Positions 1-42,226 of a stretch of 64,000 nt of DNA are shown here, piece by piece (position 1 is the first letter of the stretch; the number at the start of each line of letters is the position of its first letter). The position numbers and the translations under genes were made by a program. The notes below the pieces were generated by a model. It was given only the letters and a program-made list of their open reading frames with translations. It was not told where the DNA came from and made no database searches. Source of the DNA: Novimethylophilus kurashikiensis (GTDB taxonomy: Bacteria; Pseudomonadota; Gammaproteobacteria; Burkholderiales; Methylophilaceae); assembly GCF_003112435.1 (NCBI RefSeq), contig NZ_BDOQ01000001.1, positions 62,001 through 126,000 of the forward strand, written 5' to 3'.

Positions 1-31
1 GGGCATTCCACCGTTAACGTTAGGAACCACC

Positions 32-460
32 ATGCCCCTGAATCTTGCCATCGATAAAGCCAGCACCAAGGATTGCGCCACCGGCACGCTCAAATTGCCT
101 GAGATTCCTGATTTTCCGCTGGTCATCAACCTGGTCAACCTGACCTTGGGCGGCAAGACTTCCAGCCACTGCCTGGTGAGCGTCGAGATCAACGGCGAAA
201 CCATCGAGCATACCGTTCATCAGCGACGACACGTCGAGGACTGCCGGCATGTCTTGTCGCGCTTGCCCTTTGCGCCCAGCAGCTTGTTCCTGGAGCGAGT
301 GCTGAGCCCGGTCGTCGAAGAACTGCAGGCACAGCTGGGGATTCCCATTGCCTTGCCGATCGCGGTACGCGATCCGCTGACGCATCTCAAGGCCCTGGCG
401 AATGCAGCATCAGCCGGATTGATTAGCCTCAAGCAACTGGAAAATAACCTGGGGCTCTAG
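32..460 (+). CDS. hypothetical protein, 142 aa
   Basis: I do not recognise this protein. It has no signal peptide or membrane segment, and it looks soluble: a beta-rich first half followed by an alpha-helical C-terminal part rich in Leu and Ala. It contains three cysteines without a clear metal-binding spacing. An AGGA stands 6 bases upstream of the ATG, which supports the start. It ends about 100 bases before the GGDEF/EAL gene on the same strand. The opposite strand is also open here, but the plus-strand reading has the better start and a more natural composition. Its upstream partner, if any, lies outside the window. Confidence 0.55.
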   Translation: MPLNLAIDKASTKDCATGTLKLPEIPDFPLVINLVNLTLGGKTSSHCLVSVEINGETIEHTVHQRRHVEDCRHVLSRLPFAPSSLFLERVLSPVVEELQAQLGIPIALPIAVRDPLTHLKALANAASAGLISLKQLENNLGL

Positions 461-563
461 AACCACCAAGCCCTTGATTCAGTTACGGTAAATATGAAAA
501 AAGTATAACTATCTTCGCCCGGATGGTTAAAATGCAATAATCAATCTGCTTGCAGGGGGCTGC

Positions 564-2825
564 ATGTTGACTGGGCTGTGGGATTTTCTCGGCGGCGAAG
601 GCTTTATGCCGCATGGGCATTGCTATTTGTGGAAACCGGGGCTGCTTTGGACGTATGTGGTCTCGGACGGGCTGATCGGCCTCGCTTACTTTTCCATCCC
701 TTTGTCGCTGGTGTACTTCGTCCGACACCGACGCGATCTTCAGTTCAACTGGGTCTTCATTATGTTCTCGGCGTTTATCTTCGCCTGCGGAACGACCCAT
801 TTCATTTCCCTGTGGACGATCTGGAATCCGGTGTATTGGCTGGATGCCTCCATGAAAGCCGTCACGGCGGCCGCATCGGTTGTGACGAGCATCATGCTGT
901 GGCGGTTGATGCCTGTCGCGTTGAAGATTCCCAGTAACCGGCAATTGCAGGCTACCGTGGCGCAGCTGAGGCACGAGGTGGCCGAGCGCATGCAGGCACA
1001 AAGCGAGTTGGCCCATGTCAACGAGACGCTGGAACAACGGGTGCAGCAGCGGACTGCCGAGCTGACGGCAATCAACCAGCAACTTCAGAAGGAAATCAAC
1101 GCACGCAGAAAGACCGAGTCGGAGCTGTTTTCGGAAAAACAGCGGGCGGTCGTTACCTTGGAATCCATCGGCGATGGTGTCATTACCACCGACACCCGCT
1201 CGCATATTACCTACCTCAATCCAATCGCGGAAAAACTGACCGGCTGGTATAACGAGCAGGCCATCGACAAGCCCTTGCTAGAGGTCTTCCGCATCGTCAA
1301 CGAAACCACGCGCAAGCTGATTCCGAACCCGGTCGATGTGGTGCTGGAGCACGGCGAAGTCTATGGGGTGGGCAACCATACCTTACTGTTAAGCCGCGGC
1401 GGGAAAGAGTACGCCATCGAGGATTCTGCCGCGCCTATTCGCGACCATGACGGCAACGTGCTGGGCGTCGTCCTGGTGTTCCACGACGTGAGCGAAAAAC
1501 GCAAGATGACCCAGCGTATGACGTATCTTGCCGAGCACGATTTCCTGACCGACCTGCCCAACCGTCTACTGCTCAACGACCGCCTTTCGCAATCGCTCAC
1601 CTTGGCGCGACGCGATGGATACTTCGTGGCCTTGATGTTCATCGACCTCGATCACTTCAAGAACATCAACGATAGCCTGGGTCACGAGGTGGGCGATCAG
1701 TTGCTCAAGATGATGTCCAAGCGCTTTCTCGCTTGCCTTCGCGACAGCGATACCTTGAGCCGCCAGGGCGGGGATGAATTCATCGTGTTGCTGCCCGAAA
1801 TTGCCGACCACTTTGCGCCGGCCGAAGTGGCGGAAAAGCTTTTGAACGCTGCGGCGACGCCTTTCAACATCTCCGGTACCGAACTCCGCGTCTCGGCCAG
1901 TATCGGCATTGCGGTGTTCCCGGACGATGGGGATACCGTCGAAGCCTTGACCAAGAGTGCCGATGCCGCCATGTATCATGCCAAATCGTTGGGCCGCAAT
2001 AACTACCAGTTCTTCACCCAGGCCATGAACGAGCGGGTGAGCGAGTTGGCGTTGCTCGAGCACAATTTGCGCCGTGCGGTGGAGCACAACGAATTCGAGT
2101 TGGCTTTCCAGCCCAAGATCGAGATTGCCACGGGACGCATCATGGGGGCGGAAGTCCTGCTACGCTGGCGCCATCCCGAATGGGGGCTGGTGATGCCGGA
2201 GCGGTTCATCCCCATCGCCGAAAGCACGGGGCTGATTCGCAGCATAGGCGGGTGGGTCATCCGCGAGACATGCCGACAGAGCCGGGCTTGGCAAGACCAG
2301 GGCTTAGCCGCTGTCCCATTGGCAATCAATCTATCTGCCGTGCAGCTACGCCAGAAGAATTTCCTGCAAGAGATTACGCAAATCCTGTTGCTGAGCGGAG
2401 TGGATCTACATCAGCTCGAGTTCGAAGTGACGGAAAGCGTGGCGATCGAGAGCGAGGCCGAAGTGATTGAGTGGTTGGGCAACCTCAAGGACATGGGCGT
2501 CGGACTATCCATCGACGATTTCGGTACGGGCTATTCCAGCTTGTCCTACCTCAAGCGCCTGCCGGTGGATACCTTGAAGATCGACAAGAGTTTCATCCGG
2601 GATATCTATACCGATCCGGACGATGCCACCATCATCACCGCGATCATTCGCATGGCGCATGGCTTGCGCTTGAAAGTGATCGCCGAGGGGGTGGAAACGT
2701 CCGAACAACTGGCGTTCTTGCGAGCGGAGGATTGCGATCAATTCCAGGGATACCTGATCAGCCTGCCGTTGCCAGCTTCGGAGTTCGCTCAATTCATTCG
2801 GGAGTGGAAGGCGGAGTTGCTTTGA
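564..2825 (+). CDS. ethylene-receptor-like membrane sensor with PAS, GGDEF and EAL domains
   Basis: Predicted bifunctional cyclic-di-GMP enzyme with a membrane sensory input. Residues about 27-115 form three transmembrane helices matching the ethylene-binding domain of plant ETR1: Asp35, Tyr42, Ile45, Pro46, Ile72, Cys75 and His79 (in CGTTH) correspond, at a constant offset of 10, to the ETR1 ethylene/copper-binding residues as I remember them. A coiled coil (about 130-190) and a PAS domain (about 195-315) follow. The GGDEF domain has an intact GGDEF at 402-406 and a cyclic-di-GMP inhibitory-site RxxD nine residues before it. The EAL domain has EVLLR at 530-534 in place of EALLR, and DDFGTGYSSL at 651-660. 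The catalytic motifs suggest both activities are possible. An AGGGGG lies just before the ATG. Whether it binds ethylene is inference. Confidence 0.93.
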   Translation: MLTGLWDFLGGEGFMPHGHCYLWKPGLLWTYVVSDGLIGLAYFSIPLSLVYFVRHRRDLQFNWVFIMFSAFIFACGTTHFISLWTIWNPVYWLDASMKAVTAAASVVTSIMLWRLMPVALKIPSNRQLQATVAQLRHEVAERMQAQSELAHVNETLEQRVQQRTAELTAINQQLQKEINARRKTESELFSEKQRAVVTLESIGDGVITTDTRSHITYLNPIAEKLTGWYNEQAIDKPLLEVFRIVNETTRKLIPNPVDVVLEHGEVYGVGNHTLLLSRGGKEYAIEDSAAPIRDHDGNVLGVVLVFHDVSEKRKMTQRMTYLAEHDFLTDLPNRLLLNDRLSQSLTLARRDGYFVALMFIDLDHFKNINDSLGHEVGDQLLKMMSKRFLACLRDSDTLSRQGGDEFIVLLPEIADHFAPAEVAEKLLNAAATPFNISGTELRVSASIGIAVFPDDGDTVEALTKSADAAMYHAKSLGRNNYQFFTQAMNERVSELALLEHNLRRAVEHNEFELAFQPKIEIATGRIMGAEVLLRWRHPEWGLVMPERFIPIAESTGLIRSIGGWVIRETCRQSRAWQDQGLAAVPLAINLSAVQLRQKNFLQEITQILLLSGVDLHQLEFEVTESVAIESEAEVIEWLGNLKDMGVGLSIDDFGTGYSSLSYLKRLPVDTLKIDKSFIRDIYTDPDDATIITAIIRMAHGLRLKVIAEGVETSEQLAFLRAEDCDQFQGYLISLPLPASEFAQFIREWKAELL

Positions 2826-2980
2826 AGCTATACGCATTTTGAGTAAGAATAGACCTGCAATAAATTCATGGTATTTTCAAAATTCCCTTAATAACCAGGT
2901 TGTTGCCTAGGATTATATTTCTAATTTGTTGCTACAATGATGTTGTGGAAGTAGACGACAATCAATGCAATTAGAAATAA

Positions 2981-4144
2981 ATGAACGGCTCCTTCACTTC
3001 AGGCCGAATTCGCAAGGCCCAATCACAGGATTTAGATCCCAGGCAGGCGGTAAGAGCGTTTCATGCCGCAGTCTCGTCGCCCAAGATGGCGCTCGTGGTG
3101 TTTTTCTGTTCCAGCCATTACGACCTCGACGTGATCGCTGCGGAGATCAACGCTTGTTTTCACGGAGTCCCGGTCATCGGCTGTACCACGGCCGGAGAAA
3201 TCGGACCGTCAGGTTATCGCCAGCACAGTATTTCCGGCTTTAGCCTGCCTGCTGACGATTTCAGCGTGGCCCTCGGCCATGTAGAAAGCCTGGACTCCTT
3301 CAATCCTGCTGCTGCAAATGCCATAGTGAGCCGCTTGCTAGGGCGGCTCGGTAAGCCCGGCACTTTTCATGGCAGCCACTATTTCGCGCTTCAGTTGATA
3401 GACGGGCTTAGCAACCAGGAAGAGATCGTGACGCAGGCTTTTCAACAGGCCCTAGGCGGTATCGCCTTGTTTGGCGGTTCTGCAGGCGACGATCTGAGAA
3501 TAGAAAGCACGTGTGTGTTCAGCGATCACGCATTCCGCCGCAATTCCACGGTCTTGGCCATCATAGAAACTGTGGCTCCGTTCACGATTTTCAAAACACA
3601 GAATTTCATCGGCGGACACGATCGCTTTGTCGTGACCCAGGCCGATGCCGAAAGCCGCACGATTTACGAGTTGAATGGCGAGCCGGCGGTCCAGGTTTAT
3701 GCGCGGGCCACCGGGGTGACGGTGGACGCACTGGACGACAATCATTTTTCCGATTTTCCCGTCGTGGTACGTCTCCACGGCATGGATTATGTGCGCTCCA
3801 TTCAAAAAGCCAACCGCGACGGCAGCCTGACTTTTTATTGTGCTATCGAACGGGGATTGATCCTGAGAATCGGCCAGAGCTTGGATTTCACCGGGAATCT
3901 AGCCTCCGTGCTGGACAATGTCCGTAGCAAGGTAGGCGAGCCGGAATTACTGATTGCCTGCGATTGCGTGCTGCGTCAGATCGAAATGAAGGAAAAAGGC
4001 TGGCAATCCGAGGTCGAACAATTATTCGAACAAAACAATACCGTGGGATTCAGCACCTACGGCGAGCAATTCATGGGGATACATATGAACCAGACCTTGT
4101 CAGGGCTCGCCATCGGCTACGGCAGGGGCGAGCATGATGTATAG
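2981..4144 (+). CDS. FIST domain sensory protein
   Basis: FIST N and FIST C domains fill the 387-residue protein. The N-terminal part carries the family features VIGCTTAGEIG and the later GGSAGDD segment. The C-terminal part ends with the family signature around GEQFMGIHMNQTLSGLAIG. FIST proteins are cytoplasmic sensory modules thought to bind small ligands and are often linked to GGDEF or kinase output. The stop overlaps the start of the next gene by 11 bases, so the FIST protein and the PAS-PAS-GGDEF protein are almost certainly translated together and probably act as sensor and output. The shine-dalgarno region of this ATG is weak, so the exact start is less sure than the family. Confidence 0.92.
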   Translation: MNGSFTSGRIRKAQSQDLDPRQAVRAFHAAVSSPKMALVVFFCSSHYDLDVIAAEINACFHGVPVIGCTTAGEIGPSGYRQHSISGFSLPADDFSVALGHVESLDSFNPAAANAIVSRLLGRLGKPGTFHGSHYFALQLIDGLSNQEEIVTQAFQQALGGIALFGGSAGDDLRIESTCVFSDHAFRRNSTVLAIIETVAPFTIFKTQNFIGGHDRFVVTQADAESRTIYELNGEPAVQVYARATGVTVDALDDNHFSDFPVVVRLHGMDYVRSIQKANRDGSLTFYCAIERGLILRIGQSLDFTGNLASVLDNVRSKVGEPELLIACDCVLRQIEMKEKGWQSEVEQLFEQNNTVGFSTYGEQFMGIHMNQTLSGLAIGYGRGEHDV

Positions 4145-5645
4145 CAAGAAAGTCGCGCCCGATTCGATGACATTCGAAGCGCTGGCCGAGGAGAACCGAC
4201 GGCTGCGCAAGATCATCGATGCATTGATGGATCGCGTCGAATACGGCGAGGCAGGTGAGTCGTCTGCTTACGGTGTTTTTCAATCCACGGTGATGCTGGA
4301 GAATCTGGTCCGGCTGCGTACGCATGAATTGGAAGCCGCGCTTGAGCGCAATGAGAAGATAGGCCGTGATTTGCAGCATGCCAACGAGAAGCTGGCTCAG
4401 AGTGAGGATGGCTTCCGTAACATTGTCGATAATGCCCCCATCGGTATGTCCGTCATGGATACGAGTTATCACTTTGCCTTGGTCAACCGGGCGTTCTGCA
4501 ACATCGTGGGCTATACCAGCGATGAGTTGAAAAATCTGACGCCACTCACCTTGACACACCCAGACGACCTAGCATTAAGCCTCGATAACTTTGAGCGGCT
4601 AATTACCGAGGATATTAGTTCGTACCAAATCGAGAAACGCTATATCCGCAAGGATGGGGAGGTCGTATGGGTGCAGCTGACTACCTCGCTGTTACGCGAC
4701 ACCCAGGGGCAGCCAATCCATTTCGTCGCCCAAATGCAAGACATTACTGAGCGCCGTCGATCGGAAGAGCAGCTGAGACTGGCTGCGACGATTTACAACA
4801 GCAGCAACGAAGCGATGATGATTACCGATGCGCAAAATACCATCGTCGCCACCAATCCGGCGTTTACCGCATTGACGGGCTATGCGGCCGATGACGTGCT
4901 AGGCAAGAATCCCAGCGTGCTGAGTTCCGGCAAGCAGGACAAGCAGTTTTACCAGGCGATGTGGGAAACGCTTGCCCAGCACCATTACTGGGAAGGCGAC
5001 GTCTGGAACCGGAAGAAGAGCGGGGAAGTGTACGCTGAGTGGCTCTCTATCAGCGCCGTGCAGGATGATGACGGCCAGGTGCAGAACTACGTCGCGCTAT
5101 TCACCGATATCACTGAGCAGAAGCAGGCTGCCGATCTGATTTGGAAGCATGCCAATTACGATGCACTGACCCAGTTACCCAATCGCCGGTTGTTCCGCGA
5201 TCGGCTTGAGCAGGGAGTGAAGAAGGCGGAACGTAACGGCGACGTGCTTGCCTTGCTGTTTATCGACCTCGATCATTTCAAGGAAGTGAACGATACGCTC
5301 GGGCACCAGGCTGGAGACGATTTGCTGGTGCAAGTGGCGAACCGCATCACCAGCGAGGTGCGAGCCTCGGATACGGTGGCCCGCCTCGGCGGCGACGAAT
5401 TCACCGTCATCCTGACCGACCTGGCCGATGCCAGCCGTATCGACCGTGTCGCCCAGGCTTTGGTCGATAGCCTGGCAAAGCCTTTCCAGCTCGGCAATCA
5501 GGAGGTCCACGTTTCAGCCAGCATCGGCATCATCGTTTATCCGGATGATGCGAGGGACGTGCACAGCTTGCTCAAGGGGGCGGACAAGGCCATGTATCGA
5601 TCCAAGAGCGAAGGCCGTAATCGCTTCACTTATTTCGGCCGATAG
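4134..5645 (+). CDS. PAS-PAS-GGDEF diguanylate cyclase
   Basis: Predicted cytoplasmic diguanylate cyclase of 503 residues. An N-terminal coiled-coil stretch (about 10-90) precedes two PAS/PAC units (about 95-210 and 220-335), each closing with a DITE motif. The GGDEF domain (about 340-503) has FIDLDHFKEVND, an intact GGDEF, and an inhibitory RxxD site (RASD) five residues before it. There is no EAL domain and no membrane segment. The start overlaps the end of the FIST gene, which suggests that FIST ligand sensing feeds into this cyclase. It is followed by a perfect bidirectional hairpin terminator shared with the convergent beta-propeller gene. Confidence 0.93.
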   Translation: MMYSKKVAPDSMTFEALAEENRRLRKIIDALMDRVEYGEAGESSAYGVFQSTVMLENLVRLRTHELEAALERNEKIGRDLQHANEKLAQSEDGFRNIVDNAPIGMSVMDTSYHFALVNRAFCNIVGYTSDELKNLTPLTLTHPDDLALSLDNFERLITEDISSYQIEKRYIRKDGEVVWVQLTTSLLRDTQGQPIHFVAQMQDITERRRSEEQLRLAATIYNSSNEAMMITDAQNTIVATNPAFTALTGYAADDVLGKNPSVLSSGKQDKQFYQAMWETLAQHHYWEGDVWNRKKSGEVYAEWLSISAVQDDDGQVQNYVALFTDITEQKQAADLIWKHANYDALTQLPNRRLFRDRLEQGVKKAERNGDVLALLFIDLDHFKEVNDTLGHQAGDDLLVQVANRITSEVRASDTVARLGGDEFTVILTDLADASRIDRVAQALVDSLAKPFQLGNQEVHVSASIGIIVYPDDARDVHSLLKGADKAMYRSKSEGRNRFTYFGR

Positions 5646-5653
5646 TCCTGGCG

Positions 5654-5676
5654 TGTAGCGCAGGCGGCCCCGCCTG
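5654..5676 (+). repeat. dispersed TGTAGCGCAGGCGGC palindromic repeat, copy 1 (single arm)
   Basis: The element begins TGTAGCGCAGGCGGC and its GGCGGGG core is partly self-complementary. Near-identical arms occur at 25552-25626 and 27998-28050, in both places as inverted pairs. All copies are intergenic and close to the 3' end of a gene, which is typical of REP-like dispersed elements. Confidence 0.6.
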
Positions 5677-5714
5677 ATCGAATACCGCAGGCAAGATTTC
5701 TTGCGTCACGATAA

Positions 5715-5747
5715 AACTAAAACGGCACCTCAGGTGCCGTTTTAGTT
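5715..5747. terminator. bidirectional intrinsic terminator
   Basis: A perfect 16-base inverted repeat (AACTAAAACGGCACCT and its complement around a central C) sits between the convergent cyclase and beta-propeller genes. The A-rich left flank and T-rich right flank would give a U-tract in either direction. Confidence 0.9.
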
Positions 5748-5767
5748 ACAACCTCAGATACCTGAAA

Positions 5768-6835
5768 CTACGGGCGATCCAAGCTACCCATAGACTTCGG
5801 ATAAGTCACGATGCCCCAGGGCATGTCCTTGTCTGCGATGCGCTTGGTGACTTCGAGTTTTTGCGTGTCGATCACAACCACTTCATTCGATTTGCCGCAG
5901 GCGAGCAGGATGTTCTGATCGTCCGGGGTGAAACTGAAATGCCAGCAGCGGTCGCCCGTGGGAATGTCTTTGACCTTGTCCAGCGTCTTGGCGTCGAACA
6001 CCTGCAAGGCCTTTTCCTTGGAGGTGGCGACGAAGAGATATTTACCCTCGCGGTCGAAGGAGACGCCGTAGGGCGATTTTCCGGTGGCGATGGACTTGAC
6101 CGGGTTGAGCTTGCTGTCGAGCACGACCAGCTTGTCGGAAAACTCCAGCGTGGTCACGTAGGACTTGCCGTCCGGCGCCACCTTGATGCCGCGCGGACGT
6201 TCGCCGTAGGAAGCGACGGAGACGCTCTTCACCAGCTTGCCGGTCTTCATGTCGTGCACGGTGATGGAGTTATCGGACTCGTTGGTCACGATCATTTGCT
6301 TGCCGTCCTTGGAAAACTCGACGCCCTCGGTTTCCGGCTTGCCGACGATATCCTTCACGACCTTGCCCTGCTTGAGATCGACAATGGCGATATGGCCGGG
6401 CAGCTTGTCGTCGTCATCGTCTTCCTTGGCGGCGGGAGTGCCGGGCTTGGGCGGAGGACCGGACTTGGAACTGGGTTCGTAGGTTACGAATACCTTGTCG
6501 CCGTAGACGCGCACGAATTCCGGGTTCTTGCCAATGGGAATCTGCTTGGCGACCTTGCCGGTAGCGGTATCAATGACGGAGATGTTGCTGTCGTCCTTGT
6601 TGGCGGTGACTAGCAGCTTGCCGTCGGCGGTGATACCGATGCCACGCGGGCCCTTGGCCTGGATGTCGAGGCTGGACTTGGTTTCCATGGTGCCTAGGTC
6701 GATGACGCTGACGCCGCCTTCCTGGTTGGAAACATAGGCGACACCTTTGTCTTCGGCGATTGCAGAAGTAGCTGCGACGCCGAGCGCGAGCAGGAGCGCG
6801 GCGTTGAGGCCACGCTTGTGATACGGCTGGTTCAT
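5768..6835 (-). CDS. secreted YVTN-type beta-propeller protein
   Basis: The protein of 355 residues starts with a Sec signal peptide (positive n-region, hydrophobic LLLALGVAATSAIA, cleavage near AIA-ED). It then has repeated blades of the YVTN/lactonase-like beta-propeller type (for example AYVSNQEGGVSVID, VTANKDDSNISVID, IVTNESDNSITVHD). A charged linker with a run of five Asp residues near residue 140 interrupts the blades. The longer in-frame start at 6877 is possible, but AAGGAG nine bases before the ATG at 6835 favours the shorter form. Such proteins act in the periplasm or outside the cell. No ligand or enzyme activity can be assigned from sequence. The gene is monocistronic. Confidence 0.88.
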   Translation of the reverse strand: MNQPYHKRGLNAALLLALGVAATSAIAEDKGVAYVSNQEGGVSVIDLGTMETKSSLDIQAKGPRGIGITADGKLLVTANKDDSNISVIDTATGKVAKQIPIGKNPEFVRVYGDKVFVTYEPSSKSGPPPKPGTPAAKEDDDDDKLPGHIAIVDLKQGKVVKDIVGKPETEGVEFSKDGKQMIVTNESDNSITVHDMKTGKLVKSVSVASYGERPRGIKVAPDGKSYVTTLEFSDKLVVLDSKLNPVKSIATGKSPYGVSFDREGKYLFVATSKEKALQVFDAKTLDKVKDIPTGDRCWHFSFTPDDQNILLACGKSNEVVVIDTQKLEVTKRIADKDMPWGIVTYPKSMGSLDRP

Positions 6836-7069
6836 GCGGTTTTTCTCCTTGATTGGCAGTTGCCGTGGGTCGAACAATTCTTACAGCGGCGGGGAGCCGG
6901 CTTCCCGGTTGCTGATGCTGTGAGTGCGACAGCTCGAAAAAATTCCGTAACGGCCGCTTGCGGCTTTGAGGACGAAGGATTCTAAAGCACGTCCAGCCTC
7001 AAGGCGAGCGCGATATAGCCGTTAATCGACGCATTGCTCAAGCAATTTCATTTGGATTAGACTGGAGCC

Positions 7070-7399
7070 ATGCAGATTCAAGTCGGAGAAACCTGGGGTA
7101 AGCGCCAATCGACGGGGAGTGTGACCGTTTATCTGGTGTTGAAATCGGACCGCCGGGGCAAAGTGACGCTGCAGAACCTCAAGATGCCGACCAGCATCAT
7201 CGAAACCAAGGGCGACAAGCTTGAAAGCGACGGTTATTTTCGCGTGAGCGATACGCCTTACGTCAATCTCTCTTCCAAACGCAGCGTTCGTACACCTATC
7301 GACAAAATCGCACGCTGCCCGCGAACCATTGATATCTTCGAAGGCCGCGCGGATAGCGAGTTTCCCAGTATTCCCCAAATCCAGCCCGAGCTGTTCTAG
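7070..7399 (+). CDS. hypothetical small protein, 109 aa
   Basis: I do not recognise this protein. It is basic, soluble, with a beta-strand-rich N-terminal half (GSVTVYLVLKSD) and no signal peptide. A GGAG lies close to the ATG. The reverse strand is also open over the same span (7022-7378), so strand choice rests on the start context and on the more ordinary amino-acid composition of the plus reading. It converges on the Rossmann-PAS-GGDEF gene with a short gap and no obvious terminator. Confidence 0.5.
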   Translation: MQIQVGETWGKRQSTGSVTVYLVLKSDRRGKVTLQNLKMPTSIIETKGDKLESDGYFRVSDTPYVNLSSKRSVRTPIDKIARCPRTIDIFEGRADSEFPSIPQIQPELF

Positions 7400-7417
7400 C
7401 AGCCTAGGCCTTCTCGG

Positions 7418-8692
7418 CTAATGCTCGTTGGTAAAGCCTTCGTTGGCGATGCGGAAGGTGTTCTTGCCGTTCTGCTTGGCCCAGTACATGGCCTCATCGG
7501 CTTGTTTTAGCAAGGTCTCGAAATCGCTCGAACTATCGGGGTAGATGGCAATACCGATACTTCCGCCGATATGGCATGGCTGGTCCTTAAGGTCGATAGG
7601 CAGGGCCAGCACGTCGATGACTTTTTGGGCCACCCAGGCCGCGTTGGCGTCCTCGCCGACGTTATTGAGGATGAAAGTGAATTCGTCGCCGCCAATACGG
7701 GCAACAATGTCAGATTCGCGAATCACGCTCTTGAGGCGCTTGCCGACTTCCTGCAACAGCACGTCGCCCGCATCATGACCCAGCGTATCGTTGACCTGCT
7801 TGAAGCCGTCCAGGTCCAGGAACAGCACAGCGACCTTGTAGCGGTTGCGTCGCGCCATGGTGATGGAATGTTCCAACTGCTCTAAAAAAAGCGCTCGATT
7901 GGGCAAGCCCGTGAGGTAGTCGTGATGGGCGAGATGGGTGATTTTTTGCTCGACCAGCTTGCGTTCGGTGACATCGCGCACGATGCCGACGAAATAGCGC
8001 TGCCCCTTGATCTCCATTTCCGAAGCCGAGACTTCCATCGGGAATTGTTCACCGTTCTTCTTGATGGCGACGACTTCCTGCCCGCGGATGCCGATAGATC
8101 CGCGTTGGCCGGATTGAAGGTAGCGGGCGATATCGGCGGCATAGGCCTGCTGGGTCTCATCCGACAACAGCATCTTGACGTGCTGACCAAGCACGTCGTT
8201 TTGCGAGTAACCGAAAATTTCTTCCGCGGCCGGGTTGAATGCCTGGATTTCGCCGGTATCTGACACGGTGATGATGCCGTCCATGGCGTGGTGAATGATG
8301 GCGTTGAGCTGGTTCTGGCTGGTTTCCAGCTCGCCCTTGATGCGTTTCAGGTTGGTAACGATCTGCCAGAAGAGCTTGGCTTCCGGCCCGCTGGTGACCT
8401 GTTTGTTGTTCAGGACGGCCTTGACCTCGGCAATGACGCTATCGTCGTGCGTGAGGTTGTAGATGATGCAATCGGGGTAGGAGGTGCAGGCTTGCAGGGC
8501 TTGATGAATATCAGTATAGATCGGAATACTGAATTTCTGTGCGAGGATCATACCCGGTGCATCTGCACTCGAGTCGACGATCCCGACAACCTCTACCAGA
8601 TCGTCTTCAAGAAACATTTCCAACAAGGCATAACCACCGCGCCCAGCTCCCAGAATCAGGACGGGGTAGCCATGAATCTTCCGTTTCACCAT
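7418..8692 (-). CDS. Rossmann-fold/PAS/GGDEF diguanylate cyclase
   Basis: A 424-residue cytoplasmic protein with an unusual input. Residues about 8-115 look like a nucleotide-binding Rossmann domain: a beta strand leading to GAGRGG, then VVGIVDSS at the end of the second strand, as in CoA/NAD-binding or PglD-like domains. A PAS/PAC unit (about 130-245, ending VRDVTERK) follows. The GGDEF domain (about 255-420) has FLDLDGFKQVND, GGDEF and the inhibitory RESD site. The predicted product is cyclic-di-GMP, and the N-terminal domain could couple its synthesis to a nucleotide or cofactor. That coupling is inference. Transcribed alone, away from greB. Confidence 0.9.
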   Translation of the reverse strand: MVKRKIHGYPVLILGAGRGGYALLEMFLEDDLVEVVGIVDSSADAPGMILAQKFSIPIYTDIHQALQACTSYPDCIIYNLTHDDSVIAEVKAVLNNKQVTSGPEAKLFWQIVTNLKRIKGELETSQNQLNAIIHHAMDGIITVSDTGEIQAFNPAAEEIFGYSQNDVLGQHVKMLLSDETQQAYAADIARYLQSGQRGSIGIRGQEVVAIKKNGEQFPMEVSASEMEIKGQRYFVGIVRDVTERKLVEQKITHLAHHDYLTGLPNRALFLEQLEHSITMARRNRYKVAVLFLDLDGFKQVNDTLGHDAGDVLLQEVGKRLKSVIRESDIVARIGGDEFTFILNNVGEDANAAWVAQKVIDVLALPIDLKDQPCHIGGSIGIAIYPDSSSDFETLLKQADEAMYWAKQNGKNTFRIANEGFTNEH

Positions 8693-8859
8693 AGAAATCC
8701 CAGCGGGTTATTGTGACCAACGCCTGAGGCTCGGCCGGATTTGTTTTTACCCGATTGTACCTACTTTTTTGTTTGACTAGGAATAATTACGGGCGACGTA
8801 GGACATGCTTTCGTGGAGTGTAGTCAAAGTCCTACTTTTGCAGGGAAAGGCCTGTTGGG

Positions 8860-9354
8860 TCAGGCTGTTGGCGCGGTATACCGGATTTCGATCACTTCGT
8901 ATTCTTCCTCGCCGCCTGGCGTATGGAGCCTCACTGTGTCGCCCTCGGCCTTGCCCAGCATAGCCTTGGCCAGCGGCGAGATCCAGCTGATCCAGCCGCG
9001 TGACGGATCGAGCTCGTCCTGGCCCACAATGCGGTAGATGTGCTCGGTGTCTTGGTTGATGGAGTACAGCGTCACCCAGGCCCCGAAGTAGACCTTCTCC
9101 AACCCCTGCTGCTTGGCTGAGTCGACCACCTCTGCGAGGTCCATGCGCTTCATCAAAAAACGCAAGCGCGAGTCGATCTGGCGCAGTCGCCGCTTGCCGT
9201 AGATGTAGTCCGCGTTTTCGCTGCGGTCGCCGTTGGACGCCGCCCAGGATACGTCCGCGACCACCTTGGGCCGCTCGACCTTGTAGAGCTGGTCGAATTC
9301 TTCCTTGAGCCGGGCGTAGCCTTCCGGCGTGATGTAATTTTTTTGGTCTGCCAT
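8860..9354 (-). CDS. greB: transcription elongation factor GreB
   Basis: Full-length GreA/GreB family protein (164 residues). It has the N-terminal coiled-coil hairpin (about 10-75) with the acidic tip region NGDRSENADYIYGKRRLR, and a C-terminal FKBP-like domain ending in EYEVIEIRY. The YIYGKRRLR sequence favours GreB over GreA. The factor enters the secondary channel of RNA polymerase and stimulates cleavage of backtracked transcripts. It is divergent from the nucleotidase gene, with only 33 bases between the two starts, so their promoters must overlap. Confidence 0.95.
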   Translation of the reverse strand: MADQKNYITPEGYARLKEEFDQLYKVERPKVVADVSWAASNGDRSENADYIYGKRRLRQIDSRLRFLMKRMDLAEVVDSAKQQGLEKVYFGAWVTLYSINQDTEHIYRIVGQDELDPSRGWISWISPLAKAMLGKAEGDTVRLHTPGGEEEYEVIEIRYTAPTA

Positions 9355-9387
9355 GAGACAGGATTTTACCTACAATAGCGCCATATC

Positions 9388-10314
9388 ATGCCCACCCCAG
9401 ATCAAAAACTACCAGATCAAAAACTCGTCGTCGGCATCGCTTCGCGTGCGCTGTTCGACCTGAGCGAAAGCCATGCCGTATTCGAGCAGCAAGGCGAAGA
9501 GGCTTACTGCCGCTACCAGATCGAGCACGAGGACGACCCGCTGCAGCCCGGCGTTGCCTTTCATCTCGTGCGCAAGCTGCTGAAGCTGAACACCGATCCG
9601 GATGCCCCGCGCGTCGAAGTCATTCTGCTGTCGCGCAATAGCTCCGATACCGGCTTGCGGATTTTCAATTCCATCCGCCATTACCAACTCGACATCACCC
9701 GGGCCGTGTTCACGCGCGGCCAGAGCCCGTTCCGTTACGTGGCGGCGTTCGGCATCCACCTGTTTCTTTCGGCCGATCCCGAGGACGTGCGTCAGGCACT
9801 GGAGGCGGGTTTTGCCGCCGCGACTATCCTGCCTTCCAACGTTGGTCAGCCAACGAATGCCGGCGACCAGTTGCGAATCGCCTTCGACGGCGACGCGGTG
9901 CTGTTTTCCGACGAAGCCGAACGCGTCTACAAGGAAGGCGGCTTGCAGGCGTTTACCGACAACGAAACCCAGTCCGCGCATGAGCCCTTGTCTGGCGGCC
10001 CGTTCAAGAATTTCCTTGCCATGCTGCACCACATTCAGTCCGAATACCCGGCGGATACCTCGCCGATCCGCACTGCCTTGGTCACGGCACGCGGCGCACC
10101 GGCGCATGAACGCGTGATCCGCACCTTGCGGCATTGGGGCATTCGCATCGACGAATCGCTGTTCCTCGCAGGCATGCCCAAAGGGCCTTTCCTGCAAGCC
10201 TTCGGCGCGGATATTTTCTTCGATGACCAGCGCAAGCACTGCGATTCGGCGCGCCTCCACGTGCCCACCGGTCATGTGCCGCACGGCGTGGCGAACGAGG
10301 CGGCAGCCAAATGA
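9388..10314 (+). CDS. 5'-nucleotidase, cytosolic cN-I-like family
   Basis: A 308-residue protein matching the bacterial 5'-nucleotidase family related to cytosolic 5'-nucleotidase I. Recognisable segments are the N-terminal VVGIASRALFDLSES (nucleophile region), VEVILLSRNSSDTGLRIFNSI, the FDGDAVLFSDEAE acidic motif and the C-terminal GADIFFDDQ. It should dephosphorylate nucleoside 5'-monophosphates in the cytoplasm. Its stop overlaps the next gene's ATG (ATGA), so it is co-translated with the AddB-like subunit. A link between nucleotide salvage and the helicase-nuclease is not obvious and may just be operon packing. Confidence 0.88.
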   Translation: MPTPDQKLPDQKLVVGIASRALFDLSESHAVFEQQGEEAYCRYQIEHEDDPLQPGVAFHLVRKLLKLNTDPDAPRVEVILLSRNSSDTGLRIFNSIRHYQLDITRAVFTRGQSPFRYVAAFGIHLFLSADPEDVRQALEAGFAAATILPSNVGQPTNAGDQLRIAFDGDAVLFSDEAERVYKEGGLQAFTDNETQSAHEPLSGGPFKNFLAMLHHIQSEYPADTSPIRTALVTARGAPAHERVIRTLRHWGIRIDESLFLAGMPKGPFLQAFGADIFFDDQRKHCDSARLHVPTGHVPHGVANEAAAK

Positions 10315-26415: not shown

Positions 26416-26566
26416 CTTTTATCATCTTCTTCCCATTGCCAAAATGGGATAGCACCTGACTTCTTACGGTTTTACATTGCTTGTGAGGTGAGCCGGTTTA
26501 GGGCTCGAATCGAACAATTATTAACCGATGCCTCGCCGACAAGCGGGGCTAACAAGGAGCAAGGCG

Positions 26567-27946
26567 ATGAGTAACGAAGCGCATTCCCTCAAGCCCGCCC
26601 TCAACGCTTGGCATATGTGGGGCCTGGCAGTGGGGCTGGTGATTTCGGGCGAGTATTTCGGCTGGAGCTACGGCTGGGATAAGGCCGGCACGCTGGGTTT
26701 CATGGTGACGTCCATCCTGATCGCAGTGATGTACACCACCTTCATTTTCAGCTTTACCGAGCTGACCACTTCCATTCCCCATGCCGGTGGTCCCTTCGCC
26801 TATGCGCGCCGCGCCTTCGGGTCCAAAGCGGCGTTTATCGCGGGCTTCGCCACCCTGGTGGAATTCGTATTCGCGCCACCTGCTATCGCGATGGCCATCG
26901 GTGCTTATCTCAACGTGCAGTTTCCGGGTGTTGATCCCAAGATGATGGCGGCGGGCGCTTATGTGGTGTTCATCGCACTCAACATCATTGGCGTGCATAT
27001 CGCGGCTACGTTCGAGCTTTTCGTCACCCTGCTGGCGATCATCGAATTGCTGGTGTTCATGGGTGTCGTCTCGCCTGGCTTCTCGGTGAGCAACTTCGTC
27101 GCACACGGCTGGGCCGGACAAGAGAGCTTTAGCTGGGCGGTGATTCCCGGCATCGTGGCGGCCATTCCATTCGCCATCTGGTTCTTCCTGGCAATCGAGG
27201 GCGTGGCGATGGCAGCGGAAGAAGCCGAGAATCCCAAGCGCACCGTGCCGATTGCCTACATTGCAGGCATCCTCACTCTGGTGGCGCTCGCCCTCGGCGT
27301 GATGGTATTCGCCGGCGGCGCAGGCGACTGGAAGGCGCTGTCCAACATCAACGACCCGTTGCCGCAAGCCATGAAGATGATCGTCGGCGCCAACAGCGGC
27401 TGGCTGCACATGCTGGTGTGGATCGGCCTGTTCGGCCTGGTGGCATCGTTCCACGGCATTATCCTGGGTTACTCGCGCCAGATCTTCGCGCTGGCCCGTG
27501 CCGGCTACATGCCCAAGTATTTCGCCGCCGTGCATCCTAAATTCAAGACGCCGCATCGCGCCATCATCGCAGGCGGCGTGGTGGGTGTGGCCGCTATCTT
27601 CAGCGACGACCTGATCCAGTTCGGCGGCCAGACGCTGACGGCCAACCTCATCACCATGTCCGTGTTCGGCGCCATCGTGATGTACATGATTTCGATGCTG
27701 AGTCTGTTCGCCCTGCGCAAGAACGAACCCAACCTGGCCCGTCCATTCCCGGCGATGTTCTATCCGGCGTTCCCGCTGATCGCTCTGGTGCTGGCCGGCG
27801 TGAGCCTGGTCACCATGATCTACTACAACCAGTTGCTGGCAGGCATCTTCACCGGTTTGATGGCGCTGGCCTTCGGTTACTTCCTAATGACCAAGCACCA
27901 CCGCGATGCTGCCATCGACAAGCATCACGCGGTTGCAACGGCCTAA
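26567..27946 (+). CDS. eat: ethanolamine permease
   Basis: A 459-residue amino-acid/polyamine/organocation family transporter with about 12 transmembrane segments. It closely fits the ethanolamine permease group (opening with HMWGLAVGLVISGEYFGWSYGWD, conserved FAIWFFLAIEGVAMAAEEAENPKR). The start at 26567 is preferred over the in-frame 26528 because AAGGAG lies seven bases before it. It directly precedes eutB and eutC, which confirms ethanolamine as the likely substrate. It imports ethanolamine released from phospholipid breakdown. Confidence 0.93.
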   Translation: MSNEAHSLKPALNAWHMWGLAVGLVISGEYFGWSYGWDKAGTLGFMVTSILIAVMYTTFIFSFTELTTSIPHAGGPFAYARRAFGSKAAFIAGFATLVEFVFAPPAIAMAIGAYLNVQFPGVDPKMMAAGAYVVFIALNIIGVHIAATFELFVTLLAIIELLVFMGVVSPGFSVSNFVAHGWAGQESFSWAVIPGIVAAIPFAIWFFLAIEGVAMAAEEAENPKRTVPIAYIAGILTLVALALGVMVFAGGAGDWKALSNINDPLPQAMKMIVGANSGWLHMLVWIGLFGLVASFHGIILGYSRQIFALARAGYMPKYFAAVHPKFKTPHRAIIAGGVVGVAAIFSDDLIQFGGQTLTANLITMSVFGAIVMYMISMLSLFALRKNEPNLARPFPAMFYPAFPLIALVLAGVSLVTMIYYNQLLAGIFTGLMALAFGYFLMTKHHRDAAIDKHHAVATA

Positions 27947-27975
27947 TGGAGTAGTAGATTGTCATAAGCAATGCA

Positions 27976-28050
27976 GCCCCTCCTCATGGGAGGGGCCTGT
28001 AGCGCAGGCGACTTTAAGGAATCGATCAAGGCGAGGCCGCCTGCGCTACA
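27976..28050. repeat. hairpin plus dispersed repeat, copy 3
   Basis: A GCCCCTCC/GGAGGGGC hairpin (27976-27996) is followed by the dispersed repeat as an imperfect inverted pair: TGTAGCGCAGGCG at 27998-28010 and its extended complement at 28029-28050. It lies between the permease and eutB and could trim or stabilise the transcript end. Confidence 0.65.
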
Positions 28051-28080
28051 GACTCAACCGCAAGAGAGATAGACATTCTC

Positions 28081-29475
28081 ATGGAATATCGTCATACCGT
28101 AGGGGCGCAAACCTACAAGTTTGCCGATTTGAAAGATGTGCTGGCCAAGGCCACACCGGCGCGGTCAGGCGATTATCTGGCAGGCGTGGCGGCGGAAACC
28201 TATGCCGAACGCATGGCTGCAAGGATGTGCCTGGCCGATGTGCCGTTGCCGCAATTCCTCATTGAAGCCGTGATTCCCTACGAGCAGGACGAAATCACGC
28301 GCCTGATCCTCGACAGCCATGATGTCACGGCCTTCAAGGAAATCGGCCACCTGACCGTCGGCGGTTTTCGCGATTGGCTGCTTTCAGACCAAGCCGATAC
28401 GGCGACGCTGCGACGCGTTGCGTCCGGTATCACGCCCGAAATGGCGGCAGCGGTGAGCAAGCTCATGCGCAACCAGGATTTGATTCTGGTTGCACGCAAA
28501 TGCCAGGTAACGACTGCTTTCCGCAATACCATCGGTCTGTCGGGCAGGCTTTCCGTTCGGTTGCAACCCAACCATCCCACCGACGACGCCCGCGGCATTG
28601 CGGCTTCCATGCTGGACGGGCTGTTGTACGGCTCGGGCGATGCGGTGATCGGCATCAACCCGGCCACCGACAGCATCCCGGCGCTGATGGATTTGTATGA
28701 CCTGGTGGACGAGGTCATTACCCAATACGGCATCCCCACCCAATCCTGCGTGCTGACGCACGTCACCAACCAGATTCAGGTGATGGAAAAGGGCGCGCCG
28801 GTGGACCTTGTGTTCCAGTCCATCGCCGGAACCGAAAAAGCCAATCAGGGCTTCGGTATCAATCTTGGCATTCTGCAAGAAGCGCAAGAGGCCGCCCTTA
28901 GCTTGAAACGCGGGACGGTGGGCAACAACGTGATGTATTTCGAAACCGGGCAGGGTTCGGCGCTTTCGGCCAATGCCAATTTCGGCGTAGATCAGCAAAC
29001 TATCGAGGCGCGTGCCTATGCCATTGCCCGACGTTTCTCGCCGCTGTTGAGCAACACCGTGGTCGGCTTCATCGGGCCGGAGTATCTCTATGACGGTAAG
29101 CAGATCATCCGCGCCGGTCTGGAAGACCATTTCTGCGGCAAGCTGCTGGGCGTGCCGCTGGGCTGCGACGTGTGCTACACCAACCACGCCGAGGCCGATC
29201 AGGACGACATGGATACGTTGATGACCCTGCTGGGTGCCGCCGGAATTACCTTCATCATGGGCATCCCCGGCGCCGACGACATCATGCTCAACTACCAGAC
29301 CACCTCGTTCCACGATGCGCTGTACCTGCGCAAGGTCCTCGGCTTGAGGCCCGCGCCCGAGTTCGAGCAGTGGCTGAAAAAAATGAACATCATGGACGAG
29401 AATGGCTTGGTGCAACCGGTGACCAACGCGCACAGCATGTTGCAGAACATGCCGCGAAATTTGCTGGCGGCCTAA
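28081..29475 (+). CDS. eutB: ethanolamine ammonia-lyase large subunit
   Basis: A 464-residue protein matching EutB end to end: DVTAFKEIGHLTVGGFRDWLL, QPNHPTDDARGIAASMLDGL, the active-site region GDAVIGINPATDS, and PLGCDVCYTNHAEADQDD near the cofactor site. The adenosylcobalamin-dependent enzyme splits ethanolamine into acetaldehyde and ammonia. It is followed by eutC. No shell-protein, eutA or aldehyde dehydrogenase gene is present, so this is the compact, non-compartment form. No cobalamin riboswitch is recognisable upstream. Confidence 0.97.
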   Translation: MEYRHTVGAQTYKFADLKDVLAKATPARSGDYLAGVAAETYAERMAARMCLADVPLPQFLIEAVIPYEQDEITRLILDSHDVTAFKEIGHLTVGGFRDWLLSDQADTATLRRVASGITPEMAAAVSKLMRNQDLILVARKCQVTTAFRNTIGLSGRLSVRLQPNHPTDDARGIAASMLDGLLYGSGDAVIGINPATDSIPALMDLYDLVDEVITQYGIPTQSCVLTHVTNQIQVMEKGAPVDLVFQSIAGTEKANQGFGINLGILQEAQEAALSLKRGTVGNNVMYFETGQGSALSANANFGVDQQTIEARAYAIARRFSPLLSNTVVGFIGPEYLYDGKQIIRAGLEDHFCGKLLGVPLGCDVCYTNHAEADQDDMDTLMTLLGAAGITFIMGIPGADDIMLNYQTTSFHDALYLRKVLGLRPAPEFEQWLKKMNIMDENGLVQPVTNAHSMLQNMPRNLLAA

Positions 29476-40531: not shown

Positions 40532-42226
40532 ATGGCCGAAGCTCCCGAGCAACAAGCTGCGACCGGTTCGACTTCCGCGCTCATCCGCGGTTTCAACGAA
40601 CTGCCGCCTGCCCGCAAGATCGGGTTGATGGTCGCCGTGGCGCTGGTGATTGCCATCGTCATCGGCTCCTGGATATGGCTGCAAGCGCCCGATTACCGCA
40701 CGCTGTACAGCAATCTCTCCGAGCGTGACGGCGGCGCCGTGATCGATTCTCTGCAAAAGCTCAACGTCCCCTACAAGATGTCGGATAATGGGACGATTAC
40801 CGTTCCCTCCAATATGGTGTACGAGACGCGCCTCAAGTTGGCGTCGCAAGGCTTGCCCAAGGGGGGCGCTGCTGGTTTCGACCTGATGGACAACATGAAG
40901 CTGGGCGCGACCCAGTTTCAGGAAAACGTCACCTACCAGCGCGCTCTGGAAGGTGAAATTACACGCACTATCGAGGCCATTTCTTCTGTTCAAGGTGCGC
41001 GCGTGCATCTCGCAATCCCCAAGGAAACCGTCTTCGTCCGCGAGCAGCAAAAACCTTCTGCATCAATCCTGGTGAATCTTTATCCCGGTCGCTCCCTTGA
41101 TAAGGCCCAGGTTGAGGGCATCGTCTACCTGGTGGCGAGCAGCGTGCCTGACATGCCGCCAGCTAATGTCACGATCGTTGATCAGAACAGCAACTTGCTG
41201 ACCGCTAACAAGAAGGAAAACACGCTGGGCCTCGATTCGAGCCAACTCGAATACCTGCATGCCGTGGAGCAAACCTATATCCGCCGCATCACGGATATTC
41301 TTGAACCCATTACCGGGCCGAACAACCTTAGGGCACAGGTCACAGCCGATCTGGATTTCGCGCAGACGGAACAGACGGCGGAAACCTATAAGCCTAATCC
41401 CACGCCTGAGCAAAGCTCCGTCCGCAGCCGTCAAACTTCGGAAACGCAATCCGACACCGGTGCCAACGCGTCCGGCGTCCCTGGCGCCATGTCCAATCAA
41501 CCCCCCGGTGCCGCTTCTGCGCCGATCAACGCGCCCAACCGTCCTGCCGGCAGTGCTGCAGGTGCTAACGGCGCGAATGCAGCACCACAGACCACTGGCG
41601 GATCAACCCATAAGGAATCCACGACTAATTACGAACTGGACAAGACGATCAGCCACGTGCGTAACCCGGTCGGCAGCATCAAGCGGCTTTCTGTGGCTGT
41701 GGTGGTGAACAATCGGTCCGAGAAGGACAAGAAAGGCAAATCGGTTACGCGTCCGCTCACCAAGGATGAAATGACGCAGATTTACAACCTTGCTCGCGAA
41801 GCCATGGGGTTCAACCAAACACGCGGCGATACGCTCAACGTCGTCAATGCCTCCTTCAACATCAGCGAAGAAGAGGTGGCATCGCCTCCCTTGTGGAAAG
41901 ATCCCTCCATGGTTTCCCTGGCTAAGGACCTGGTGAAATACCTGATAGTGGCGGGTCTGTTGATGTACTTGTTGATGGGTATTATTCGTCCCACCTTGCG
42001 CGATCTCCAGCAAGCCGGCGAGGCCGAAGAACGGGCTGAGCGCGAAGCCGAATTCGGCGAGAGGGGCGGACTCGAAGATGCTGCTGAAGGTGTTGGTGAT
42101 GTGGTAAACATCGGCGGCAAGCGTGCTCATACGTACGAAGACGATTTGCATATGGTCAAGGAGTTGTCCAAGGATGATCCGAAGTTGGTGGCGAACGTCT
42201 TGAAGGATTGGGTGACTAAAGTATGA
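40532..42226 (+). CDS. fliF: flagellar MS-ring protein FliF
   Basis: A 564-residue inner-membrane ring protein. A first membrane helix (about 29-50) precedes LYSNLSERDGG and the ring-building domain with PKETVFVREQQKPSASILV (shown as its core KPSASILVNL). A long low-complexity Pro/Ala/Asn-rich segment (about 290-375) and the second helix (about 462-482) follow. The C-terminal tail that binds FliG is rich in Glu. First gene of the fliFGHIJ operon. GAGGT precedes the ATG, and the stop overlaps fliG. Confidence 0.97.
   Translation: MAEAPEQQAATGSTSALIRGFNELPPARKIGLMVAVALVIAIVIGSWIWLQAPDYRTLYSNLSERDGGAVIDSLQKLNVPYKMSDNGTITVPSNMVYETRLKLASQGLPKGGAAGFDLMDNMKLGATQFQENVTYQRALEGEITRTIEAISSVQGARVHLAIPKETVFVREQQKPSASILVNLYPGRSLDKAQVEGIVYLVASSVPDMPPANVTIVDQNSNLLTANKKENTLGLDSSQLEYLHAVEQTYIRRITDILEPITGPNNLRAQVTADLDFAQTEQTAETYKPNPTPEQSSVRSRQTSETQSDTGANASGVPGAMSNQPPGAASAPINAPNRPAGSAAGANGANAAPQTTGGSTHKESTTNYELDKTISHVRNPVGSIKRLSVAVVVNNRSEKDKKGKSVTRPLTKDEMTQIYNLAREAMGFNQTRGDTLNVVNASFNISEEEVASPPLWKDPSMVSLAKDLVKYLIVAGLLMYLLMGIIRPTLRDLQQAGEAEERAEREAEFGERGGLEDAAEGVGDVVNIGGKRAHTYEDDLHMVKELSKDDPKLVANVLKDWVTKV

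Follow-up and report, generated by a model that had tools for sequence, protein, structure and literature searches.

What signal is received by a protein that joins an ethylene-receptor-type membrane domain to the enzymes of cyclic-di-GMP (c-di-GMP) turnover, and by what route might the signal reach those enzymes? The question is raised by an ORF at positions 564-2825 of a 64,000-nt stretch of DNA, the window analysed here, from contig NZ_BDOQ01000001.1 of Novimethylophilus kurashikiensis (Methylophilaceae). The product (Table 1) carries an ethylene-binding domain (EBD; Pfam ETR1_N) followed by PAS, GGDEF and EAL domains, and other proteins of this EBD-PAS-GGDEF-EAL layout are termed ‘window-type’. 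C-di-GMP is the bacterial signal that chooses between swimming and sticking. The reading we favour, and consider probable, is that this single protein both senses ethylene through Cu(I) and sets c-di-GMP.

Table 1. Features of the EBD gene, in window coordinates.
Feature	Position	Strand	Residues	Basis or remark
EBD-PAS-GGDEF-EAL gene	564..2825	+	753 aa	single open ORF, ATG start
Likely ribosome site AGGGGG	554-559	+		4 nt upstream of ATG 564
Motif PHGHCYLW	609..632	+	16-23	its P, H, G, C and W hardly vary among bacterial EBDs
EBD	642..929	+	27-122	Pfam ETR1_N; three predicted membrane helices
D35 (= ETR1 D25)	666..668	+	35	alignment, conservation
Y42, I45, P46 (= ETR1 Y32, I35, P36)	687..701	+	42, 45, 46	alignment, conservation
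I72, C75, H79 (= ETR1 I62, C65, H69)	777..800	+	72, 75, 79	alignment, conservation
K98 (= ETR1 K91)	855..857	+	98	alignment; covaries with D35
Continuous predicted helix, EBD to PAS (signalling helix)	936..1160	+	125-199	model; 185-199 pLDDT <50
PAS domain	1155..1502	+	198-313	Pfam
GGDEF domain	1530..2003	+	323-480	Pfam, E 6e-50
GGDEF motif	1767-1781	+	402-406	intact
RxxD I-site (R393..D396)	1740-1751	+	393-396	intact
EAL domain	2064..2768	+	501-735	Pfam, E 6.7e-79
EAL residues			EVL 530-532, N589, T623-E624, DDFG 651-654, K672, AEGVE 707-711, Q728	all present

A chance resemblance of the EBD to plant receptors is excluded. Pfam ETR1_N matches it at E 1.9e-40 (137.5 bits against a cut-off of 27), and a whole-genome profile search gives it 142.4 bits as the sole match (E ≤ 0.001) in the 3.69-Mb genome; the EBD profile found zero matches in 14 control genomes. 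The sequence-only reading had proposed three N-terminal membrane helices that keep all seven ethylene-binding residues of ETR1 at one constant offset, and both parts are borne out. A structural model of residues 1-132, built with 61 bacterial sequences, has helices at 25-55, 62-87 and 91-121 (mean pLDDT 87.6, with block means of 92-96 over residues 31-120 and values below 50 at residues 17-19, PHG). BLASTP against residues 1-129 of ETR1 aligns 97 aa at 39% identity (E 5e-23) and pairs the seven residues at a single offset of +10, so that the Cys, His and Asp positions fall together (C75/C65, H79/H69 and D35/D25). The stretch from ETR1 D25 to H69 aligns free of gaps; a gap of 3 residues then precedes the pairing of K98 with K91. 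We take the seven residues to be D25, Y32, I35, P36, I62, C65 and H69, and 25 and 91 to be the ETR1 numbers of the Asp and Lys of the salt-bridge pair discussed below. A PDB sequence search with the EBD found no solved relative at E ≤ 1, and a fold search with the EBD model gave 120 matches at E ≤ 10 and none at E ≤ 0.001.

Ethylene binding requires seven residues (PMC11819568, PMC6682694), and ETR1 holds Cu(I) through C65 and H69 (PMC13012798). The seven and K98 are invariant in all 13 intact window-type proteins, the 12 others being 59-70% identical to the N. kurashikiensis product. Among Methylophilaceae EBDs at large, 28 of 32 keep all seven (the broken EBD of G308 is left out of residue counts and trees), the exceptions being G300 (Y42C and C75Y, with H17I and C20S), G284 (D35N), G391 (I45T) and G393 (P46L). 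The G300 receptor, a GGDEF-EAL protein (L161:4899-7538), has an EBD from which the Cys ligand, Y42 and both the H and the C of PHGxC are gone, and it may have lost copper or ethylene binding.

Changing the conserved Asp of ETR1 to Asn lowers its affinity about 100-fold, and a salt bridge from this Asp to a Lys has been proposed (PMC13012798). Among 74 profile-found EBDs, K98 is lost in 7/7 that lack D35 against 4/67 that retain it (Fisher 1.8e-7, a test that ignores relatedness, and four of the seven D35 losses come from a single genus, leaving about four independent events). This pair is the best of 35 columns tested for covariation, the next best reaching a Fisher value of 0.016. The consistent loss of K98 with D35 fits the proposed salt bridge, and the covariation lends evolutionary support to the Asp-Lys pair of ETR1, which is intact in the N. 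kurashikiensis protein. In genus g26 of the order, four (L014, L016, L019 and L022) of the six EBD-GGEEF proteins, the others being L010 and L011, pair an Asn in place of D35 with an Arg in place of K98, and thereby carry the low-affinity ETR1 change in natural form.

The PHGHCYLW motif directly precedes the first membrane helix and has C20 as its single Cys. Of the EBDs without H17 or C20, 4/6 have lost C75 or H79, as against 1/68 of those that keep both (Fisher 6e-5; the order matches L008, L009, L011 and L017 were excluded from this comparison and from the trees). Other conserved columns are lost alongside H17/C20 too, which looks like general decay, so that a place for PHGxC in the copper site is no more than a candidate reading. 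The single N-terminal Cys of EBD proteins may form a dimer disulphide (PMC6682694), and a disulphide or an extra copper ligand are candidate roles for the PHGxC..W motif.

That the output would be GGDEF plus EAL rather than a histidine kinase was also claimed from the sequence, and it holds: Pfam finds both enzyme domains and no HisKA or HATPase at E ≤ 0.001, so that the protein does not belong to the histidine-kinase receptor type. The GGDEF motif and the RxxD I-site are invariant in 13/13 intact window-type proteins, and so are the listed EAL residues, with the exception of E708 (at least 90%). By sequence the closest solved structures to the GGDEF-EAL half are 5m3c (E 4.5e-131), the motility regulator 4rnh and DosP, each of which carries both GGDEF and EAL; E530, N589, T623-E624, the DD pair at 651-652, K672, E708 and Q728 align with 5m3c and 4rnh. 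From these motifs both enzyme activities are predicted for the product. A full-chain model, built with the 13 window-type proteins, runs from helix 125-199 into PAS, GGDEF and EAL (mean pLDDT 72.8), but its pTM of 0.41 makes the placement of the domains unreliable.

How, then, might the signal pass from one half to the other? By comparison with its homologues, the EBD is predicted to bind Cu(I) and ethylene. Ethylene as the intended signal of the sensor is a well-supported prediction, because AzoEtr1, which has the same seven residues, binds ethylene (PMC11819568) and the homologue SynEtr1 has been termed an ethylene receptor (PMC6682694); the D35-K98 covariation backs it further. In the proposed mechanism, Cu(I) would be coordinated in the membrane domain by C75 and H79 and ethylene would bind at the copper, with the D35-K98 pair tuning affinity and linking ligand binding to motion of the helices. 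The third membrane helix would pass its motion through the continuous helix 125-199 of a dimer to the PAS domain, and this would alter the ratio of GGDEF cyclase to EAL phosphodiesterase activity. Ethylene would in this way change c-di-GMP directly, with no His-Asp phosphorelay, and in plant-associated methylotrophs the sensor might report a nearby plant and help to decide between swimming and attaching. That ethylene raises rather than lowers net c-di-GMP is a guess, to which we lean only slightly.

The genome has features that bear on such a role. N. kurashikiensis has five PilZ and two flagellin matches, and on these and the intact GGDEF and EAL motifs it is suggested that ethylene could control biofilm or motility in this bacterium. 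Its over-cut-off matches also include five PQQ dehydrogenases of the methanol/ethanol type and three Cu-ATPases, the latter being ordinary, with at least one in 13 of the 14 controls too; a search of the genome for ACC deaminase gave none over cut-off. Across the family, flagellin is present in 31/32 EBD-bearing genomes (all except G396) compared with 52/155 lacking an EBD (Fisher 5.5e-12), a link that genome size and relatedness confound and that is therefore not proof; the small g122 genomes listed for both searches (0.8-1.4 Mb) are without both. One study found Methylophilaceae abundant and actively using methanol in every soil, bulk soil among them, with a higher diversity of active members close to plants (PMC7065363). 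Elsewhere in the window there are a gene for FliF, of the flagellar M-ring (40532-42226), and one for EutB, the large subunit of ethanolamine ammonia-lyase (26528-29475), which in this methylotroph lies beside an amino-acid permease.

The immediate neighbours do not point to a dedicated partner. A FIST gene (2981-4144) begins 155 bp after the EBD gene and overlaps by 11 bases a PAS-PAS-GGDEF gene (4134-5645), and a second PAS-GGDEF gene on the minus strand (7418-8692, with a below-cut-off DapB_N match) brings the c-di-GMP genes to three in 9 kb. FIST and PAS-PAS-GGDEF were considered as operon partners and rejected, FIST recurring in 1/32 family loci (G317, E 5e-16). When six window neighbours were sought in the 32 family loci (28 of 11 kb and four of 5.5-8 kb), no fixed EBD partner was found. 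Other GGDEF proteins lie near the EBD in 6/32 (G116, G420, G421, G392, G284 and G283), and a seventh such match, in G316, comes from the second fragment of that genome's own broken gene. Promoter and terminator scans of window positions 1-9400 stayed near their shuffled controls (6 vs 5.4 and 8 vs 10.1).

EBDs are common in bacteria. They were found in 32/187 Methylophilaceae genomes, spread over 8/24 genera, in 21/250 genomes of an order-wide sample (19 of them over cut-off) and in 29/398 across the phylum (28 over cut-off). At least 583 relatives came from a pattern scan of named genomes, and the best 80 of these were kept. The below-cut-off loci L020, L021 and L190 are excluded from the counts, with L190 kept among the 29 phylum loci. 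The family count is of 33 EBD genes, one per genome but two in G283, with three contig-end fragments of G395 excluded. C-di-GMP enzymes form the output of 27/33 and histidine kinases that of the other six; the former comprise 22 GGDEF+EAL proteins (15 window-type, broken in G316 and G308, and seven longer), four with GGDEF only and one with HD-GYP. The best 80 of the at least 583 named relatives comprise five loci from Methylophilaceae and 75 from outside the family, the latter being 67 kinases (by phmmer), three GGDEF+EAL proteins (L051 from a Deltaproteobacteria MAG, L076 from Aphanothece and L097 from Iningainema) and five unclassed, among them L035, which has a kinase ATPase domain by Pfam. 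The contrast in c-di-GMP output between 27/33 in the family and 3/75 outside it within these best 80 (Fisher p 1.7e-16) is descriptive only, the two sets being drawn differently and their members related. Elsewhere in the order sample, GGEEF is carried by 6/18 over-cut-off EBD genes, all in one genus (f22/g26), and the 29 phylum loci comprise 19 kinases, 10 unclassed (several cut short) and no c-di-GMP outputs. Two window-type genes, L149 (G316, Methylophilus sp. Leaf416) and L162 (G308), appear broken while intact in related genomes; both genomes stand under the Methylophilus genus code.

A quick tree of 121 EBDs requires nine changes between c-di-GMP and kinase output (five unclassed rows uncounted), and a careful tree of 53 rows, hand-picked from the 121 with the long-branch G284 and G300 excluded, gives nine changes overall and four inside Methylophilaceae. 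A single clade for the 25 family c-di-GMP-linked EBDs is rejected (AU p 3.5e-6, for a group set by output domain after the quick tree had been seen), so that outputs were gained or exchanged repeatedly; such counts are blind to gain versus loss, and thus both repeated joining and output exchange would serve. The HD-GYP protein of G396 (L138:4866-6041, with HDIGK, HHE and GYP; Pfam HD_5 E 1.7e-40) is an EBD phosphodiesterase whose EBD sits among the very similar kinase EBDs of G380 and G395 (support 99/89). The placement of the N. kurashikiensis row in the careful tree is not starred and the EBD offers only 110 columns, which leaves the exact number of events unsure. Even so, Methylophilaceae appear to have rewired the EBD sensor more than once.

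The case for a one-protein ethylene sensor is thus drawn from several directions. Counted for it are the ETR1_N match, the seven residues with K98, the intact enzyme motifs, the predicted membrane-to-PAS helix, the D35-K98 covariation and the 28/32 intact family EBDs, together with the PilZ, flagellin, Cu-ATPase and PQQ dehydrogenase matches and the soil study (PMC7065363). Counted against it are the two broken genes among 15 of window type and the 155/187 family genomes free of an EBD, which imply a dispensable function; the G300 protein, which keeps GGDEF-EAL without C75 and Y42, so that the output can outlast the ethylene site; and the lack of an ACC deaminase over cut-off, of a fixed neighbour partner and of a better full-chain pTM than 0.41. 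The literature searched, as accessible, gave no report of binding or activity for any EBD-c-di-GMP protein, and this too is counted against it.

The same evidence bears on what else the protein might be. The copper site could be kept for a natural ligand other than ethylene, such as copper itself, O2, CO, NO or another small unsaturated molecule. CoxC senses CO with a copper MHYT domain, a role in sensing NO or O2 is proposed for MHYT-GGDEF-EAL proteins (PMC11347149), and the ACC deaminase search gave no sign of ethylene use by N. kurashikiensis. Conservation, however, extends beyond the two copper ligands to all seven ethylene residues and K98, the D-K pair tied to ethylene affinity covaries, and ethylene is bound by AzoEtr1, whose residues are the same (PMC11819568), so we regard a different ligand as unlikely. 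We give rather less credence to an EBD that binds ethylene while the enzymes answer mainly through PAS, or while one catalytic domain is silent, which would leave an anchored phosphodiesterase or cyclase. The behaviour of CdgB, mainly a phosphodiesterase in its host yet able to raise c-di-GMP in E. coli (PMC9683572), would suit such a protein, as would the G300 receptor with its copper site lost and its enzymes kept; against this, the 13 window-type proteins show no variation in GGDEF or the I-site and next to none in the EAL residues, and a mere anchor would be expected to drift in its EBD residues, where 28/32 keep all seven. Least probable by far is an ETR1-like membrane segment without function, whether by chance or as a remnant: broken copies do occur in two genomes coded as Methylophilus, but the profile match, the intact residues and their conservation across orthologues tell heavily against a remnant, and chance is already refuted.

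Membrane-to-cytoplasm signalling in ethylene receptors is listed as an open question, with no high-resolution EBD structure (PMC13012798), and an EBD joined to an enzyme with a simple c-di-GMP readout makes this question directly testable. Natural variants are on offer in the D-to-N change accompanied by K-to-R, the loss of the copper Cys and the swapped outputs on very similar sensors. A further suggestion is that bacteria feeding on methanol, a plant vapour, may also sense a plant hormone. A wider proposal, which we find evenly balanced, is that Methylophilaceae made ethylene a direct c-di-GMP input by joining the EBD to GGDEF-EAL, GGDEF and HD-GYP in several separate EBD lineages, giving phosphorelay-free one-component receptors by which methanol feeders recognize living plants. 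Such receptors would form an ethylene-receptor class of their own, with ligand binding and enzyme output both measurable on one chain.

Parts of this arrangement have precedents. A wide range of output domains, some absent from plants, is reported for bacterial EBD proteins in a review (PMC7700396), so the class as such is already known. In the literature searched, which most subscription papers lay outside, no paper was recognised, from the accessible text, on an EBD fused to GGDEF, EAL or HD-GYP, and the EBD-c-di-GMP wiring may be undescribed. The Geitlerinema GeiEtr2 locus groups an EBD receptor gene with a diguanylate cyclase gene, but these are separate proteins, and the sensory domains of GeiEtr2 are followed by a terminal receiver domain, not by GGDEF-EAL (PMC6682694).

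DosP, which senses O2 by haem and lacks a membrane domain, and the 4rnh motility regulator, which we take to be MorA, resemble the catalytic half by sequence but have no EBD. The MHYT domain, another membrane sensor, is larger than ETR1_N. Judged by analogy, the nearest functional analogue of the predicted product is CdgB (MHYT-PAS-GGDEF-EAL), which is a dual-function enzyme (PMC9683572). CdgB, MucR and NbdA (MHYT-[PAS]-GGDEF-EAL) likewise place a copper-type membrane gas sensor ahead of (PAS-)GGDEF-EAL (PMC9683572, PMC11347149), and copper-dependent CO sensing by MHYT has been shown for CoxC (PMC11347149); their MHYT is a different membrane domain, for diatomic gases, whereas the sensor here is ETR1_N. 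On the sensory side, the same three-helix EBD with the same seven residues is found in AzoEtr1 of Azospirillum brasilense, SynEtr1 of Synechocystis and plant ETR1. AzoEtr1 binds ethylene and, by the title of its paper, affects biofilm and root colonization (PMC11819568); unlike the N. kurashikiensis protein, it is an EBD-PAS-histidine kinase with a response regulator gene adjoining. All three of these receptors have a histidine kinase as their output, whereas the N. kurashikiensis protein, which has no kinase, carries PAS-GGDEF-EAL behind the shared sensor in a single chain.
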